A DNA stretch of 58,768 nucleotides from positions 1 to 58,768 of the forward strand of contig JAAZZH010000006.1 of NCBI GenBank assembly GCA_014239265.1, written 5' to 3'. The position numbers and the translations under genes are program-made. The notes beneath the pieces are model-generated. The model was not told where the DNA came from. It was given only the letters and a program-made list of their open reading frames with translations, and searched no databases. Origin of the DNA: Actinomycetota bacterium (GTDB lineage Bacteria; Actinomycetota; Acidimicrobiia; Actinomarinales; Actinomarinaceae). Positions 7,006-23,459 of this stretch are shown one piece after another; the stretch's first letter is position 1; each line of letters starts with the position of its first letter.

Positions 7006-7014
7006 TGGTTTTTT

Positions 7015-7345
7015 GAGACTATAAGCCGGATTCTGTTTACAAATTAATGTAAGATAATCATCCATCTTGTATATTTGTTACCAAATACATCTAGCTATCT
7101 ACCCGCAATTTTTAGCCGAGCAAGCTAATTGCTTCTTGATATTGCACTGAGAGGGGTTTACAAGCTAATTTAATTACTTAAATTACTGGTAGTCTCTTAC
7201 ACCACCTTTTCACCCTTACTTACTTACGCAAGCGGTATATTTTCTGTTGCACTTTCCGTCAATTACTTGCCTGGGAGTTACCCAGCTCTCTGCTCTATAG
7301 TGTCCGGACTTTCCTCGATAAATCGCGATTATCCATCTCAAAAAT
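7015..7345 (-). ncRNA. rnpB: RNase P RNA (bacterial class A), boundaries approximate
   Basis: Minus strand carries 'GAGGAAAGTCCGGAC', 'GGGTGAAAAGGTGG', 'GTAAGAGACTACC' and terminal 'CAGAATCCGGCTTATAG', the conserved P RNA segments. Confidence 0.95.
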
Positions 7346-14779: not shown

Positions 14780-15838
14780 CTATTTATTTTTTATTGATTC
14801 CAGGACAGCGTCCCCAACTTCAGAAGTTGTGAGGCCCATTTTTCCAGCTGAAAGAGAGTCTAAGTTTTGTGCTGTAGTAATTATTGCATTTTCGATATCT
14901 TGACCGTAGTCAGATTCACCCAATTGAGTGACCATCATTGAAGCAGCCGCAATGCAAGCAAGGGGATTGATAATATTTTTACCTGTATATTTAGGTGCAG
15001 AGCCACCAATAGGTTCAAACATAGATACGCCCTCTGGATTAATATTACCTCCAGCAGCTATTCCCATCCCACCCTGGATCATTGCCCCTAAATCAGTAAT
15101 GATGTCTCCAAACATATTATCGGTAACTATAACATCAAACCATTCCGGATTTTTCACCATCCACATACAAACTGCATCAACATGTCCATAATCTGTTTCT
15201 ATTTCAGGGTAATCTTTTGCAATATCGTAAAATATCCGCTCCCACAAATCATGTGCATATGTCAAAACGTTGGTTTTTGCACATAGAGTAATTTTCTTTC
15301 TATTGTTATTTTTGGCATACTCAAATGCATATAAAATACATCGGTGAATAGCTTTGTATGTGTTTATTGACTCCTGAGTAGCAACTTCACTCTCTGTACC
15401 ATAATGGATATATCCTCCAGCTCCAGCATAGAGGCCTTCAGTGTTCTCACGGACTACAGTAAAATTTATATCTTCAGGTTTTTTATTCGCTAGGGGAGTC
15501 TCGACTCCCGGATATAAGACAACTGGACGCAAATTTATATACTGATCAAATTCTTTTCTTAGCTTTAATAGGATTCCTTGTTCTAATATTCCAGGCTTTA
15601 CATCAGGGTGTCCTATAGCTCCAAGAAGAATAGAATCACTGCTCCCAAGTTCTTCGATATCTTTATCAGTGACAAGTTCCTGTGTCTTTAAATATCTTTC
15701 ACCACCAAGATCATTTGCGGTAAAGTTAAAATTGATCCCATAATCTGCTTGAGTTTTTTGTAGAACTTTTACAGCTTCATTGACTACTTCTGGACCTGTC
15801 CCATCACCTGCTAAAAGAGATATATTATATTCTTTCAT
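14780..15838 (-). CDS. leuB: 3-isopropylmalate dehydrogenase
   Basis: 'LLAGDGTGPEVVNEAVKVL', 'VTDNMFGDIITDLGAMIQGGMGIAAGGNINPEG', next to leuA. Confidence 0.9.
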   Translation of the reverse strand: MKEYNISLLAGDGTGPEVVNEAVKVLQKTQADYGINFNFTANDLGGERYLKTQELVTDKDIEELGSSDSILLGAIGHPDVKPGILEQGILLKLRKEFDQYINLRPVVLYPGVETPLANKKPEDINFTVVRENTEGLYAGAGGYIHYGTESEVATQESINTYKAIHRCILYAFEYAKNNNRKKITLCAKTNVLTYAHDLWERIFYDIAKDYPEIETDYGHVDAVCMWMVKNPEWFDVIVTDNMFGDIITDLGAMIQGGMGIAAGGNINPEGVSMFEPIGGSAPKYTGKNIINPLACIAAASMMVTQLGESDYGQDIENAIITTAQNLDSLSAGKMGLTTSEVGDAVLESIKNK

Positions 15839-17328
15839 TATCTATTAAGAGCATTTAAAAAGGATTCAACTGAACCCTGTACAACATCAGTTGACACTGC
15901 CCTTCCTTGTTTCAAATTGTGACCATCATTTATTATTGTTACGATTTCAGCAGTAGCATCAGCTCCTTTGGTTATGCTTTCAACTCTATAATCAATAAGA
16001 GTCGCATCTGTTTCTAATATTTTTTTAACCGCTGTAAATGCTGCATGTATCATTCCGTCTCCTTCAGCTTCCTCAGTCAACTCTTTGCCGTGAACATCTA
16101 GAGTAACTCTAGCAGATGCATATTGATCTTTGCTATTTACGGAAACTGATACTAATTTTATCTCTGAAGAAGATGTTTCAACTTGTCCCACAATTGCACG
16201 AAGTTCATTTTCAACAATTTCACCTTTTCTATCAGCTAGCTTCTTGAAAGTGTCAAAACTTGAATTAAATTCTTCCTCAGCTAATTCTATATTCAATTTA
16301 TCTAATGCATCTTTAAATCCAGCACGTCCAGAATGCTTACCAAGGATAATTTTTGCCTCTTGACCTACAGAATCTGGAGTCATAATTTCATATGTCATAC
16401 TATTTCTTAAATAGCCATGTTGATGAATTCCAGATTCATGACTAAATGCATTCTTCCCAACTACTGCTTTATTATATTGAACTGGATATCCCGTTAATTT
16501 TGATACCAGTCTTGAAGTTTCTAAGATTTCAGTTGTTTCGGCATTAATATCAACTCCATATTGATCCTGTCTAGTTTTCACCGCCATTATTATTTCCTCA
16601 GTAGAAGTATTACCAGCTCTTTCTCCAATACCATTAATAGCACCTTCAATCTGTCTGGCTCCAGCTTTAATTGCTGTTAAAGAGTTTGCAACAGCAAGGC
16701 CTAAATCATTGTGACAATGGGTAGAAATAATAATATCTTCATTTTTACCTTTAACTTTATCGTAAACACCCTTGAGGAGCTCTAAGTAATCAGAAGGTGT
16801 GGCGTAGCCTACTGTGTCGGGAACATTAATTGTAGTCGCCCCTTCTTCAACTGCTACTTTAAGTATTTCTATAAGAAAATCTTTATCAGTTCGTGTTGCA
16901 TCTTGCGCTGAGAATTCAATATCATCACATAAATTTTTTGCATAACGTACTGACTCTTTTGCATCATGGAGGACTTCTTCTTTAGTTTTTCTTAGCATAT
17001 GTTCCATGTGTATATCAGAGGTGGAAGTAAAGACGTGAATTCTTGATTTGTTAGCAACCTTGATAGCTTCCCATGCTTTTTCGATATCATCAGGAACACA
17101 CCTGGCGAGAGAGGCTATTGTTGAATTTTGAATATTTTTAGCGATTAAGTTCACACCATCCCAATCGCCAGGGGATGATGCTGCAAATCCAGCTTCAATG
17201 ACATCAACTTTCAATTTTTCTAATTGTTGAGCAATTAATAATTTTTCAGAGGGAGTAAGAGCTATCCCTGGACTCTGTTCACCATCTCTAAGAGTGGTGT
17301 CAAAAATAATAAGTTGATCTTCACTCAT
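15838..17328 (-). CDS. leuA: 2-isopropylmalate synthase
   Basis: '[23 protein letters not shown]', '[39 protein letters not shown]', C-terminal LeuA allosteric domain. Confidence 0.95.
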
Positions 17329-18341
17329 TTGTCTTTTTTAACATCCTTTGCGCTCAAGAATGGCATCATAGACCTAAGCTCTTTACCAACCGATTCAATT
17401 TGATGTTGCGAAGCTTCTTCTCTTTTTTGATTTAAAAATGGAGAACCTTCTCTTGATTGAGCCATAAATTCTTTTGCAAATGAACCAGATTGAATTTCTT
17501 CAAGAACTTTTTTCATTTCTTTCTTTGTATCTTCATTTACAATACGTGGTCCCCTTGAAAAATCACCATATTCTGCAGTGTCCGAAATTGAATGTCTCAT
17601 CCACTCAAATCCGCCTTCGTACATAAGGTCAACAATCAATTTAACTTCATGTAAAGTTTCAAAATATGCGCTTTCAGGCTGATATCCAGCTTCAACTAAT
17701 GTCTCAAATCCATTTTTGATTAATTCAGTAAGGCCACCACAAAGTACAACTTGTTCTCCAAATAAATCAGTCTCAGTTTCTTCTTTAAAAGTCGTATCTA
17801 GAATTCCAGCTCTTCCACCACCAATTGCTGATGCATATGAGAGTGCAAGCTCATGTGTGTTTCCGTTAGTATCATTTTCTACTGCTACTAAGCAGGGCAT
17901 GCCTGAACCTTCTTCATAAGTTCTTCTTAATAAGTGACCAGGTCCCTTTGGAGCTACCATAGCAACTGAAATATCTTCTCTTGGTTTTATTTCATTAAAA
18001 TGAATGTTAAAACCATGCGCAAAAAATAAAGTTGAATTTTCCTTCATGACTGGGGCTATTGTTTCGTTATAAACATCAGCCATTAATTGATCAGGAAGTA
18101 GCAACATTACTACTTCTGAATTTGAGACAGCATCTTCAACATTGGATACATTTAGACCCATTTCTTTTGCTCTTGTAAAAGTTTCAGAAGTTTCTCTTAA
18201 CCCAACAGTTACGTCTACTCCTGATTCGTGAAGATTTAATGCATGAGCGTGTCCTTGGCTTCCAAAACCAATTACTGCAACTTTCTTTTCTTTTATTAAA
18301 TCCTGATTAATTTGATCATCATAAATAATTTTTGTATCCAT
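17325..18341 (-). CDS. ilvC: Ketol-acid reductoisomerase (class I)
   Basis: '[21 protein letters not shown]', '[23 protein letters not shown]'. Confidence 0.96.
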
Positions 18342-18355
18342 ATAATTTCTCCTTT

Positions 18356-18829
18356 TTATAAATTAGATTGAATAGCTATTCTTCCGCCACGAATCATTTC
18401 AATAATTCCAAACGGTTTCATTAGGTTTTCAAACTTTTTCAATTCTTTAGATGTACCAGTTAGCTCAAAAACTGCATAATCCTGTCCTACATCAACAGAT
18501 TTTGCGCCTGATAAATTTGCTTTTTCTATAACTGATGTTTGAGAATCTTTGTTGATTGAGACTTTCATTAACATCACTTCGGATTCAATCGTGTTGTCAG
18601 GATCTAGTTCTACGATTTTTATGACATTTATTAATTTGTTTAACTGTTTTTTTACCTGCTCTACCGATTCAAGCTCTGTAACAATTGTCATCTTTGATCT
18701 TCCGTCAATATTTGTTGGACCTACGGAAAGTGAATTAATATTAAAGCCTCTCCTTGAAATTGTTGAAGAAATTCTTGCTAATACACCCGGTTTGTCTTCA
18801 ACAAGCACACTCAAGATTCTTTCACTCAT
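18356..18829 (-). CDS. ilvN: Acetolactate synthase small subunit
   Basis: ACT domain '[34 protein letters not shown]'. Confidence 0.95.
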
Positions 18830-20538
18830 ATTTTTTTCAAATCCTCTTCATTTAGGATGATTACATCATTACTACCCCCAGCAGGAACCATAGGAAAAAC
18901 CATATCATCTGGATCAACAACACAGTCAACAAGTACCGGCTTATCATTAATTTCAAGCATTTTTTCAAATACATCTTTTACTTCGGACTTTTGTTCCATT
19001 CTTAGTCCGACAGCTCCCATAGCTTCAGCAAGTTTTACATAGTCAGGGGTGTGATGGGTAAGTTCAGAAGCTGAAAACCGACTTTTATAAAATATTTTTT
19101 GCCACTGTCTCACCATTCCATGATTTCCATTATTGAAAACAACTATTTTCAGAGGGATGTTTTCTGTAGAAGCTGTTATTAGTTCCTGACAAGTCATCTG
19201 AAAACAACCGTCTCCATCTAAAGAAAGAACCTGTCTATCAGGATAGGCTGCTTTTGCTCCTATAGCCGCTGGTAGGGAGTACCCCATGGTTCCTAATCCT
19301 CCAGAATTTAACCAAGTGTTTGGTTTTGTAAATTTCCAATGTAAAGATATCCACATTTGATGCTGACCAACCCCCGAAACTACAATTGAGTCATCCTCTG
19401 ACATTTTTTGAAGTTCTTCAAGTACATAGGGAACTTTTAATGGACCATCTTCATCTTGAGTGAAGGTGAGGGGATAGCTTTCTCTCATTTCATTAATTTC
19501 TTGAATCCAGTTGGAAGTTTCTAGTTTGGTATCTCCAAGCTTATCAATAAGACCTTTGATAACACTTTTTGCATCTCCAACTATAGGTACTTCCGCATCT
19601 CTTACTTTTCCAATTTCAGCAGGATCTATATCAGCATGAATAACTTTTGCATTTTGAGCAAAAAACTCTGGATTTGCTGTTACTCGATCATCAAACCTTA
19701 CACCTATTGCAATTAATAAATCTGAGTTCTGAATCGAAGTTGTGGCGGTATAGTTCCCATGCATACCTGGCATTCCTAAACATAGTTCATGACCATCAGG
19801 AAATGCACCTCTACCCATAAGAGTTGTAACCACTGGAATGTTGAACTTCTCAGCTAGATCAAATAACTCAATATTTGCCTTTGAGTGAATAATTCCTCCA
19901 CCGACATATAAAAGAGGTTTCTTGGAGTCTTTGATTAAGTTTACTGCCTGTTGAATCATTTTTGGATTTGCATCAAGAGTAGGTTTGTATCCTGGTAAAT
20001 CTATCAACTTTGGCTCAATCCATTTTGCTTTTTGGTTAAGAATATCTTTTGGTATATCTACTAGAACTGGTCCTGGTCTTCCGGTAGTAGCAATATGTTT
20101 TGCCTCAAGTAGTACTTGAGGAATCTCACTAGCGTCAGTAATCAGATAATTATGCTTTGTTGCTGCCATTGTGAGACCAACTGTGTATGCCTCTTGGAAA
20201 GCATCATTACCAATAGCTTCAGTAGCAACTTGACCTGTTATAGCTAGAAGAGGGGTTGAATCCATTAAAGCATTGTTTAATGAAGTGATCAAGTTAGTAG
20301 CACCAGGTCCAGAAGTAGCAATTACTACACCTAACTCACCAGTTGCCTGAGCGTAACCTTCAGCCATGTGACCCGATCCTTGTTCATGCCTAGCTAAAAT
20401 ATGTCTTATCGGGCTGTCGTAAAGTGGATCATACGCTGGAAGGATTGCACCACCGGGTACGCCAAAAATGGTAGAGACTTTTAAATGTTCCAAACCTCTA
20501 ATAACAAGCTCTGCGCCTGACAATAATTTATCTTCCAT
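18826..20538 (-). CDS. ilvB: Acetolactate synthase large subunit
   Basis: ThDP enzyme 'GVPGGAILPAYDPLYDSPIRHILARHEQGSGHMAEGYA'. ORF track starts at 20586, but that start lies in the attenuator hairpins; MEDKLLSGAELV (ATG 20536-20538) has an upstream AAGGA. Confidence 0.95.
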   Translation of the reverse strand: MEDKLLSGAELVIRGLEHLKVSTIFGVPGGAILPAYDPLYDSPIRHILARHEQGSGHMAEGYAQATGELGVVIATSGPGATNLITSLNNALMDSTPLLAITGQVATEAIGNDAFQEAYTVGLTMAATKHNYLITDASEIPQVLLEAKHIATTGRPGPVLVDIPKDILNQKAKWIEPKLIDLPGYKPTLDANPKMIQQAVNLIKDSKKPLLYVGGGIIHSKANIELFDLAEKFNIPVVTTLMGRGAFPDGHELCLGMPGMHGNYTATTSIQNSDLLIAIGVRFDDRVTANPEFFAQNAKVIHADIDPAEIGKVRDAEVPIVGDAKSVIKGLIDKLGDTKLETSNWIQEINEMRESYPLTFTQDEDGPLKVPYVLEELQKMSEDDSIVVSGVGQHQMWISLHWKFTKPNTWLNSGGLGTMGYSLPAAIGAKAAYPDRQVLSLDGDGCFQMTCQELITASTENIPLKIVVFNNGNHGMVRQWQKIFYKSRFSASELTHHTPDYVKLAEAMGAVGLRMEQKSEVKDVFEKMLEINDKPVLVDCVVDPDDMVFPMVPAGGSNDVIILNEEDLKKI

Positions 20539-20547
20539 AACATCCTT

Positions 20548-20576
20548 AAAAAAAAACCTCCCTTTTTTTTGGGAGG
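20548..20576 (-). terminator. Intrinsic terminator (attenuator) upstream of ilvB
   Basis: Minus strand CCTCCC-AAAAAAAA-GGGAGG-TTTTTTTTT. Confidence 0.88.
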
Positions 20577-20600
20577 CGCTCATCACAAAAAAGTGAGCGC
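20576..20600 (-). promoter_or_regulatory. Leader hairpin between leader peptide stop and terminator
   Basis: Minus strand GCGCTCA-CTTTTTTGTGA-TGAGCGC, first base shared with the leader stop codon. Confidence 0.75.
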
Positions 20601-20650
20601 TACATAAGCACTAGCACTAATAATGTAATTAAGACATATAGTTTTTTCAT
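20600..20650 (-). CDS. ilv operon leader peptide MKKLYVLITLLVLVLM*
   Basis: Short ORF, 16 aa, 10 of 16 residues Leu/Val/Ile, directly upstream of a hairpin and terminator and ilvB. Confidence 0.82.
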   Translation of the reverse strand: MKKLYVLITLLVLVLM

Positions 20651-20656
20651 TAAATC

Positions 20657-20668
20657 TAACTATAGTTA
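20657..20668. promoter_or_regulatory. Shared palindromic -10 candidate for ilv leader (-) and queG (+)
   Basis: AACTATAGTT palindrome gives TATAGT on both strands; on minus strand TATAGT-TAGATTTA-ATG (leader peptide). Confidence 0.45.
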
Positions 20669-21766
20669 ATGCTGATAAAAATGAAAGAAAAAAACCTATT
20701 TAATTATCTCGAAAGTCATAATATAGACGTTCCAGAAAATATAAATCTAGCTGTAATTTCGCTTCCTTCATTAATAGATAAATCAATTTTAATCCAAGAA
20801 GTAAAATCTAATAACAGACATGCAAACATGAAATTTACATTCTCAAATCCTAAGTATTCTGGACTTGGTGATAAATTTGAATGGGCAAAATCTTGTATAA
20901 TAATTTCATATAACTACTTTCCAGGATCATCAAACAATCACTCTTTTAGAGCTGGTCATGGGGCTATAGCTTTATTTGCTTTAGAAGATAATTACAAACC
21001 ACTAAATAAGTTTATAAATGAACTTACAAATCTATTTAACAATGAAGGGATTCAATCACAACAATTCATTGACAGTCCACAACACTACGACAGAATGTTT
21101 TTTAACTCATCAGGACTAGGATGGCAGGGAAAAAGTACAATGATGTTATCACCGGGAATAGGTCCATGGCAGTTAATCGGCAATCTTTACACTGAGGAAC
21201 AATTTAAAGATACTGAAAAAAAATCATTCTCATGTGGAACCTGTAATATGTGTCAAATCTCATGTCCAACGGGAGCATTAGATGAGGAATATAGACTCGA
21301 CTCTAATAAGTGTCTGTCATATTGGTTACAATCTCCAGATATCATTCCAGAAGATATGAGAATAAATATAGGTAATAGATTCTATGGCTGCGATGAATGC
21401 CTAACTTCATGCCCACCAGGTCAGACCAAGGAGCTTAATATCTCAAAAACGAATACAGTCGATTTAAAAAAAATCCTAACCATGTCAAATGAAGATTTGG
21501 TTGATAAATATTCATGGTTTTATATCCCAAAAAGAAATGGCGACTTTCTTAAAAGAAATGCATTAATAGCACTTGCAAATAATCCAGATGAAGATGCACT
21601 TAAAGTAATTTATACTCTCTTAAAATCTGATTCTGAAATTATTCGCTTTTATGCAATATGGGCTATCTGGAAAATATCTCAATTTAAAGATATTGAAAAT
21701 TATTATGATGTTGATCTTGAAACGAGCGACCTTGTAAAGAACGAATATCTAAGGCTTATAAAATGA
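20669..21766 (+). CDS. queG: Epoxyqueuosine reductase
   Basis: 'CGTCNMCQISCPTGAL', 'CDECLTSCPPGQTKE' two 4Fe-4S clusters, C-terminal HEAT-like repeat; real start may be ATG 20681. Confidence 0.92.
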   Translation: MLIKMKEKNLFNYLESHNIDVPENINLAVISLPSLIDKSILIQEVKSNNRHANMKFTFSNPKYSGLGDKFEWAKSCIIISYNYFPGSSNNHSFRAGHGAIALFALEDNYKPLNKFINELTNLFNNEGIQSQQFIDSPQHYDRMFFNSSGLGWQGKSTMMLSPGIGPWQLIGNLYTEEQFKDTEKKSFSCGTCNMCQISCPTGALDEEYRLDSNKCLSYWLQSPDIIPEDMRINIGNRFYGCDECLTSCPPGQTKELNISKTNTVDLKKILTMSNEDLVDKYSWFYIPKRNGDFLKRNALIALANNPDEDALKVIYTLLKSDSEIIRFYAIWAIWKISQFKDIENYYDVDLETSDLVKNEYLRLIK

Positions 21767-21797
21767 TTTTATACAACAGTTAAACTATTCTTAATTT

Positions 21798-23459
21798 ATG
21801 ACAAAATTTTCAGATGATGTAACACAAGGTCCGGGTCGATCTGCTGCAAGAGCCATGCTTAGAGCAGTGGGTTTAAGCGATGATGATTTTAATAAATTTC
21901 AAGTCGGGATAGTATCTGCTGGTAACGAGGTAACGCCATGCAATGTAACAGGTCCAGAGCTTTCTTTGAAAGCAAAAATTGGAGTCAATGGACCAGATTC
22001 TGCAGGTTTAATCTTTTCTACAATCGCAGTTTCTGACGGTATCTCAATGGGGCATGAAGGCATGAGGGCCTCACTCGTTTCTCGTGAGGTCATTACTGAT
22101 TCTGTGGAATTAGTAATGCACGCTGAAAGATTTGATGGCATGGTTACCATTGCAGGCTGTGATAAATCTCTTCCAGGGATGCTTATGGCTGCAGCAAGAA
22201 TAAACAGACCAGCTATATTCTTATATGGCGGGAGTAGCCTACCCGGTTCTTATAAAGGTAAAGATATCTCAATAGTTGATGTATTTGAGGGTATAGGAGC
22301 TATGGAAAAGGGTCTAATTTCTGAGGATGAACTATATGAGATAGAGTGTGCTGCTTGTCCAGGGCAAGGCTCATGCGCAGGAATGTTTACTGCCAACACA
22401 ATGGCCTCAGTTGGAGAAGCTATTGGAATGAGCTTACCAGGCACAGCCTCACTTCCAGCAGAAGACTCACGTTTACGGATTGAGGCTGAAAAAACTGGTA
22501 AACAATTAAATTATCTTCTAAAAAATGATATTAAACCTAGAGATATTATGACCATTGAAGCATTTAAAAATGCTGTAACAACTGTACTTGCTCTCGGGGG
22601 GAGCACCAATGCCGTATTACACTTAATGGCTATAGCCCATGAAGCAAAAGTAGATTTAACTTTAGACACCTTTGACCAACTTGGAAAAAGTGTTCCCCAC
22701 ATAGCTGACATGAAGCCTTTTGGTAAATATCACATGGTCGATTTAGATAACATTGGTGGAGTTCCTGTCGTCTCAAAAATACTTTTAGAAAATAATTTAA
22801 TTGATGGCGACTGCTTAACAGTAACTGGAAAAACTGTTGGTGAAAATCTTGAGAATGTTCAAATCCCTACAAACCAAGATGTCGTTTCATTTCCAAATAA
22901 TCCAATTTCAGAAGAGGGAGGGATTGCAATACTAAATGGCTCTTTGTCTCCTAATGGATCTGTTGTAAAAGTAGCAGGTATAGAAATTGATACATTTAAA
23001 GGTCCAGCCAATGTTTTTGAAAGCGAACAAGAAGCATTAGAAGCTTTATTTAAAAATCAGATTAAAAAAGGTGAAGTTGTTGTTATACGAAATGAGGGCC
23101 CTAAAGGTGGTCCGGGGATGAGAGAAATGTTACAGATTACCGCTGCAATAAAAGGTGCAGGTCTTGGGAAAGATGTGCTACTTATTACGGATGGTAGATT
23201 TTCAGGTGGAACCACAGGTTTGTGCATTGGCCATGTTGCTCCAGAAAGTGTTGATGAAGGGCCAATAGCTTTATGTCAAAATGGAGATGAGATAGAACTC
23301 AATCTTTCTAAAAGAGAATTGAATCTCAATGTAAATGAAGAGGAAAAACAATCTAGAGCTAAAAATTATAAACTCCCAGAACCAAGGTATACATCTGGAG
23401 TACTTCACAAGTATTCAAAGCTTGTAAAAGGAGCTGATAAAGGGGCAGTGACAGGATAG
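21798..23459 (+). CDS. ilvD: Dihydroxy-acid dehydratase
   Basis: '[26 protein letters not shown]', '[16 protein letters not shown]', '[20 protein letters not shown]'. Confidence 0.96.

Follow-up and report, generated by a model that had tools for sequence, protein, structure and literature searches.

A putative leader-peptide attenuator with a hairpin abutting the leader stop codon, upstream of ilvBNC-leuAB in Candidatus Actinomarina and of branched-chain genes in its relatives

The ilvB upstream region in Candidatus Actinomarina

The stretch of DNA that was analysed (hereafter the window, 58,768 nucleotides) comes from a genome which, judged from its sequence, is Candidatus Actinomarina, of the class Acidimicrobiia. 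Its nearest relatives by ilvB bear the names Actinomarina or Actinomarinales. On the minus strand, five genes for branched-chain amino acid synthesis overlap or nearly abut one another (Table 1), so that the element described below stands at the head of an apparent ilvBNC-leuAB operon. On its other side, queG and ilvD are divergently oriented on the plus strand, and this gene order is kept at all the Actinomarina loci checked except one, whose contig stops within queG.

Table 1. Features of the window discussed in the text, in the order of the minus strand.
Feature	Position	Strand	Basis
Palindrome TAACTATAGTTA with the -10-like TATAGT, usable both ways (ilvB leader on minus, queG-ilvD on plus)	20657..20668	.	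sequence
Leader ORF ATGAAAAAACTATATGTCTTAATTACATTATTAGTGCTAGTGCTTATGTAG, 16 codons (6 Leu, 3 Val, 1 Ile)	20600..20650	-	sequence; frame conserved
Final five leader codons GTG-CTA-GTG-CTT-ATG (Val-Leu-Val-Leu-Met); regulatory codons -5 to -2	20603..20617	-	family position profile
Hairpin P1, GCGCTCA / 11-nt loop / TGAGCGC	20576..20600	-	sequence; strong family covariation
Hairpin P2, intrinsic terminator CCTCCC-A8-GGGAGG-T9	20548..20576	-	sequence; covariation
AAGGA, likely ilvB ribosome binding site	20543..20547	-	sequence
ilvB, acetolactate synthase large subunit	18826..20538	-	TIGR00118, 762 bits; ATG at 20538
ilvN, acetolactate synthase small subunit	18356..18829	-	NF008864/TIGR00119
ilvC, ketol-acid reductoisomerase	17325..18341	-	NF004017/TIGR00465
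leuA, 2-isopropylmalate synthase	15838..17328	-	TIGR00973
leuB, 3-isopropylmalate dehydrogenase, final gene of the apparent operon	14780..15838	-	NF002898
RNase P RNA, bacterial class A	7006-7344	-	Rfam RF00010, 273.8 bits

An earlier note on this DNA had described a short leader ORF, a first hairpin, a terminator, an AAGGA sequence and the ilvB start codon, and each of these is found in the sequence. The leader reads MKKLYVLITLLVLVLM and ends with the stop codon TAG, whose last base is also the first G of P1. The arms of P1 lie at 20600-20594 and 20582-20576 and those of P2 follow directly, C20576 being common to the two hairpins.

Upstream of the leader, the sequence ACTATAGTTA is 99% conserved among 49 Actinomarina loci, and TATAGT is found 7 or 8 nt 5' of the leader ATG in all 49. 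The palindrome is a putative promoter element. As TATAGT stands so close to the start codon at every locus, the leader mRNA is probably leaderless, or has only a few nucleotides before that codon. The perfect symmetry of TAACTATAGTTA further suggests a single bidirectional promoter, serving ilvBNC-leuAB on one side and queG-ilvD (20669-23459) on the other.

The element is present at all 49 Actinomarina loci that have an ilvB 5' end; these represent 30 distinct upstream sequences, 19 of them below 95% identity, and encode 16 distinct leader peptides. The leader frame is intact everywhere, with 16 codons at 47 loci and 15 at the two others, which carry a 3-nt deletion. In an alignment that includes identical rows, the P1 arms, the P2 5' arm and the T-run are 98-100% conserved, whereas the P1 loop (67%), the P2 loop (74%) and the adjoining queG coding DNA (74%) drift. 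In one Actinomarina clade, the P2 stem CCTCCC/GGGAGG has become CCTCCTT/AAGGAGG. No true ilvB was found in five Actinomarina genomes (G017, G023, G004, G025 and G026, one of them about 90% complete); this may point to branched-chain auxotrophy in these species or to gaps in the assemblies.

Distribution, codon content and geometry of the element

In order to examine more distant relatives, 59 acidimicrobial ilvB loci were collected by ilvB protein similarity alone (57-65% identity), with L062 and L098 counted as duplicates of L028 and L030. The same anatomy, i.e. leader ORF, stop codon, P1, short spacer and P2, was observed at 56 of the 59. A covariance model was trained on 26 of these sequences, all from outside Actinomarina, a first model having been discarded because of its poor automatic structure. 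This model recovered the Actinomarina copies with E values of 9e-6 to 7e-4 (625 kb searched), and matched the copy of the window with an E value of 3.6e-5 in its own genome. A second match in that genome (C10:900-974, E 0.044) has no fitting gene or leader and is attributed to chance. In the model alignment, which is fitted to the structure, standard pairs occupied 93% of the pair cells versus 79% in shuffles, and 155 double changes were counted versus 42.

Within the class, whole-genome searches gave matches in 261 of 296 genomes, which represent 134 of 148 genera; across the phylum, 76 of 247 sampled genomes gave matches, including some from other actinobacterial classes. Further matches (L204, L210-L212 (E 0.019 or weaker) and L238) were regarded as chance, as was L233 (E 1.5e-4), apparently a gene-end terminator, and all chance matches were excluded from the statistics by hand. 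Other terminators of the same loci were considered as a background control, but were too few for statistics (13 GC-rich and 3 from Actinomarina, two of the latter being attenuators). With Rfam 15, no family reached the gathering score for the region, and only chance-level matches appeared at E values up to 10. A conserved YRTAYCC-like stretch (CGTACC, CATATC or GTATCC) lies just 3' of the U tract in many GC-rich relatives (for example L028, L064 and L076); it is absent from Actinomarina, and no pairing partner for it was found. The earlier note had proposed conservation and covariation in related genomes as a check, and both are seen there: the ORF and the hairpins persist at all 49 Actinomarina loci, and P1 and P2 covary in the family. 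Judged by these comparisons, the module is very probably a real regulatory RNA, and it belongs to a group of predicted amino-acid switches that spans the phylum.

Second and third copies of the module were read in 27 genomes. Of 40 extra matches retrieved, 36 precede branched-chain genes, and the other four are weak (E 0.019 or weaker). In all, the motif occurs in front of ilvB, leuA, leuS, cimA and leuB, and the residues at the end of the leader change with the gene. The leaders of leuA and leuS end in leucine runs (YLLLLT, ALLLLM or RLLLT before the stop), those of cimA, whose citramalate synthase product belongs to the isoleucine route, in isoleucine runs (NAIIIIF, TTIIIT), those of leuB in isoleucine and valine (SVIIIL), and those of ilvB in leucine and valine. 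At one locus (L206), cimA directly follows a leuB with an Ile/Val-type leader; this connects that leuB with isoleucine synthesis by way of citramalate and fits the isoleucine codons of its leader.

By position, leucine, isoleucine or valine accounts for 87-97% of the residues at -2 to -5 of the ilvB leaders and for 16% at -1; leucine occupies all -3 and -4 positions of the leuA/leuS leaders, and isoleucine 93% of the -2, -3 and -4 positions of the cimA leaders. The association between residue and gene gave a chi-square p of 3e-54 over codons, and the comparison of cimA with leuA/leuS leaders a Fisher p of 3e-7 by sequence. Since codons with T as their middle base score better with the model, the mere presence of these three residues in secondary copies is partly selected. 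The matching of residue to gene is not selected in this way, and much of the ilvB set came from the protein search. Thus, leader codon identity follows the operon, which is strong evidence for ribosome-mediated attenuation. The earlier proposal of a branched-chain leader-peptide attenuator of ilvB is borne out by this recurrence of one anatomy, with matching codons, at leuA/leuS, cimA and leuB.

The leader valine codons are mostly the rarest of each group. GTG makes up 7.9% of the valine codons in the genes of the window versus 93% in the leaders of the AT-rich Actinomarina, and in the G+C-richer relatives GTA makes up 9.8% in genes versus 72% in leaders. Such a choice is what one would expect if the sensor is tuned to respond to early depletion, or if the codons share one tRNA. 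A common reader of GUA and GUG, tRNA-Val(UAC), was not found among 32 tRNA matches in an 84% complete genome (G000), where only tRNA-Val(GAC) was present; this may reflect an assembly gap. The stop codon is also biased: TAG ends the leader in 117 of 131 non-redundant copies, versus 92 of 347 long ORFs in distant relatives.

The distances between the parts are equally constrained. In most sequences P1 starts a few bases from the leader stop, most commonly 2 nt after its first base, and, counted from that first base, the 5' arm of P1 extends to 10-14 nt in 113 of the 131 non-redundant sequences (median 12). By established toeprint geometry, a ribosome whose A site holds the stop codon covers the mRNA to about this distance. 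A terminating ribosome would therefore just cover the 5' arm of P1, whereas one stalled a few codons earlier would leave it free. P1 and P2 are separated by 8 nt or less in 130 of the 131 sequences (median 2), and the four basal pairs of P1 are 84-100% G-C. The phylum-wide family, this footprint geometry, the preference for rare codons and the nucleotide common to P1 and P2 are additions to the earlier note.

Pairing tests and possible modes of action

To look for an antiterminator, the complementarity of segment pairs within each of the 131 sequences was compared with that obtained after swaps among sequences. The P1 arms (z -36) and the P2 arms (z -26) stood out clearly. The other 18 pairs, drawn from leader, P1, P2, loops and 3' flank, were unsupported after correction, the energies of short loops being unreliable. 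In particular, the P1 loop showed no excess pairing with the P2 arms, with the same reserve on duplex energies for short loops, and the 3' flank gave no signal with P1 or P2 apart from P2a-post in the ilvB sequences (z -2.6, not significant after correction). An invariant pairing would escape the swap test; shuffling likewise revealed none, and shuffled leaders indicated no excess pairing in the family at large. That leader codons might pair with the 3' arm of P2 as a general antiterminator was suggested by a CUCCUU in leuA leaders; this was rejected, as such pairing did not exceed swaps or shuffles and was absent from the cimA copies.

As a positive control, the trpE leaders of two other Acidimicrobiia genomes (L251 and L252) were inspected. 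They show tandem Trp codons and a classical antiterminator/terminator arrangement, in which GGTGG or GAGGTGG pairs with CCCACCTC (-10.6 and -14.1 kcal/mol). The approach is thus able to detect classical antiterminators where they are present. In the branched-chain family, no strand that would exclude the terminator by pairing, as in trp-type attenuators, was detected, and since only P1 and P2 covary, the missing antiterminator is a property of the family. The suspicion of the earlier note that switching might be non-classical is strengthened by this result.

Sequence comparison shows the conservation, the covariation of P1 and P2, the codons that match the operon, the geometry and the lack of another detectable pairing. 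From these we propose the scheme below, in which regulation, its direction, the leaderless start and the hindrance between the hairpins are all inferred. The charging of leucine and valine tRNAs would be sensed through leader codons -5 to -2. When these tRNAs are charged, the ribosome would arrive at the UAG and cover the 5' arm of P1, so that P2 forms freely and terminates transcription. When leucine or valine tRNA is scarce, the ribosome would stall 2-5 codons earlier and P1 would fold right ahead of it. The folded P1, with its G-C-rich base abutting P2, would then prevent the base of P2 from closing in the RNA exit channel, and the polymerase would read through into ilvB. In Actinomarina, the common base C20576 could allow P1 to take the basal pair or pairs of the terminator directly. 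Elsewhere, the hairpins mostly just abut, and the hindrance would have to be steric. We assign a probability of about 0.6 to this explanation as a whole. Attenuation by translation of the leader is, by itself, very probable. That P1 is the antiterminating element appears likely, and that it acts sterically with no strand exchange has slightly less than an even chance. No paper on an abutting hairpin acting as an antiterminator was found in one narrow literature search.

The first alternative is a classical strand exchange, in which AGUGCU of the leader (region 1), the P1 arms (regions 2 and 3) and P2 are mutually exclusive, P1 being the 2:3 antiterminator. The earlier note had seen that the leader codons GUGCUUAU could pair with AUGAGCGC; this pairing is possible, but the minimum free energy fold of Actinomarina favours instead AGUGCU with AGCGCU, in the 5' arm of P1. 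AGUGCU is kept among the Actinomarina clades despite a shifting register, and leader-P1 complementarity exceeds that of shuffles in this genus (z -5 to -9, values inflated by the kinship of the 11 sequences). In the rest of the family, however, the signal vanishes (z +0.9 to +2.7 for the 5' arm, -0.2 to +1.0 for the 3' arm). The leader-hairpin pairing suggested earlier rises above shuffles in Actinomarina only; it is not general and cannot be the mechanism of the family. A similar restriction applies to the overlap between the hairpins, which amounts to 1-2 bp in Actinomarina. There, a complete P1 brings P2 from -13.0 to -8.6 kcal/mol, a cost of up to 4.4 kcal/mol which speaks for exchange, whereas outside this genus P1 and P2 are mostly without overlap (spacer 0-8). 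Even in Actinomarina, P1 and P2 together (-18.7 kcal/mol) are almost isoenergetic with the fold in which P2 keeps its basal pair (-18.5 kcal/mol); exclusion between P1 and P2 is therefore not strong thermodynamically and would have to be kinetic or steric. As a true classical antiterminator is easily recognized in the trpE leaders of the same class, strand exchange is considered unlikely.

P1 could also be a pause hairpin that holds the RNA polymerase for the ribosome, in which case control would depend on how the two are coupled at the terminator and not on a block of P2 by P1. Attenuators of the trp type contain pausing hairpins as a standard part, each copy of the module has P1 ahead of P2, and P1 would be opened by a ribosome standing at the stop codon. 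Pausing, however, does not alone make starvation raise expression, and it leaves the close spacing of P1 and P2 unaccounted for. This role, too, seems improbable as the basis of control.

A mainly translational control, or a regulatory protein bound to P1 or P2, with a minor contribution of the terminator, is very unlikely. In the ilvB group, the conservation of the GCGC at the base of P1 and of CCTCC in P2 goes beyond what pairing would require, and for the actinobacterial LEU element the involvement of a protein has been suggested (PMC1262725); against this stand the U tract after P2 and leader codons that change with the operon, for which a protein-binding site has no need. An ordinary terminator lying by coincidence behind a chance or small-protein ORF, with no regulation, is hardly credible given the conserved frame, the codons that match the operon and the fixed geometry in the 131 sequences.

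Returning to the proposed hindrance of P2 by P1, we tentatively suggest, with less confidence than for the steric action at the present locus, a phylum-wide class of attenuators devoid of strand exchange, in which a stall-dependent hairpin abuts the terminator and sterically blocks it in or at the exit channel of the RNA polymerase. If true, such a class would account for the unrecognized antiterminators of several actinobacterial ilvB leaders.

Relation to known attenuators

The general kind of element is already known. With the E. coli trp-type attenuator, the present one shares a leader peptide, presumed sensing by a stalled ribosome and an intrinsic terminator; in the trp type, however, a separate antiterminator strand pairs with the 5' arm of the terminator, and none was found in the branched-chain family. 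Leader ORFs with terminators have been predicted upstream of ilvB in Corynebacterium, Mycobacterium and Streptomyces, with the statement that the mode of regulation was unclear and that parts of the attenuator were missing (Seliverstov et al. 2005, PMC1262725). The resemblance to these leaders is close, as they too combine a short Ile/Val/Leu ORF with an intrinsic terminator upstream of ilvB and no recognized antiterminator. In the S. coelicolor ilvB leader, changing the candidate regulatory codons left regulation unaffected (cited in PMC1262725). This result counts against attenuation, although the S. lividans form of the leader extends further past the regulatory codons. The S. lividans IlvL and LeuL leaders are transcribed leaderless, as shown by RNA-seq (PMC8079986).

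Two features separate the present module from those leaders. The ORFs of the 2005 study and of S. lividans overlap the terminator hairpin or run past the regulatory codons (MRTRILVLGKRVG before the stop), whereas the leader stop of the present module lies right against a distinct hairpin, P1, that covaries. In addition, the module is found again at leuA, leuS, cimA and leuB, with codons that match each context.

The Corynebacterium ilvB-II motif, for which attenuation has been proposed, likewise has a P1 and a P2 upstream of ilvB, P2 being a terminator, and a branched-chain uORF (Narunsky et al. 2023, PMC10272879). Its uORF covers most of P1, and its antiterminator is a pairing between the P1 loop and the 3' shoulder of P2 (PMC10272879), whereas P1 of the present module begins at the stop codon and is not spanned by the uORF. 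The ilvB-OMG and Leptospira ilvB motifs, which are reported as distinct motifs of other bacteria, also place branched-chain-rich uORFs upstream of ilvB (PMC10272879); the region studied here shares that placement and matches no Rfam 15 family. The LEU element of actinobacterial leuA is a pseudoknot whose base stem pairs leucine codons with the leuA ribosome binding site (PMC1262725). The leuA copies of the present module resemble it in their leucine-rich leader ORF but, unlike the LEU element as described, end in a terminator and a U tract. The Actinomarinales genome paper makes no mention of attenuation or leader peptides (PMC7771536), and in the literature searched we did not find described a module with a P1 abutting the stop codon, used in five gene contexts and lacking an antiterminator throughout.

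If the predicted function is correct, a highly streamlined group of marine bacteria has retained attenuation of its branched-chain operon. With respect to the known systems, the module offers one anatomy in five gene contexts, with codons matched to the product and a constant geometry relative to the ribosome footprint, and no other pairing was detected; this uniformity reduces the question raised in 2005 about ilvB leaders to a few simple tests.
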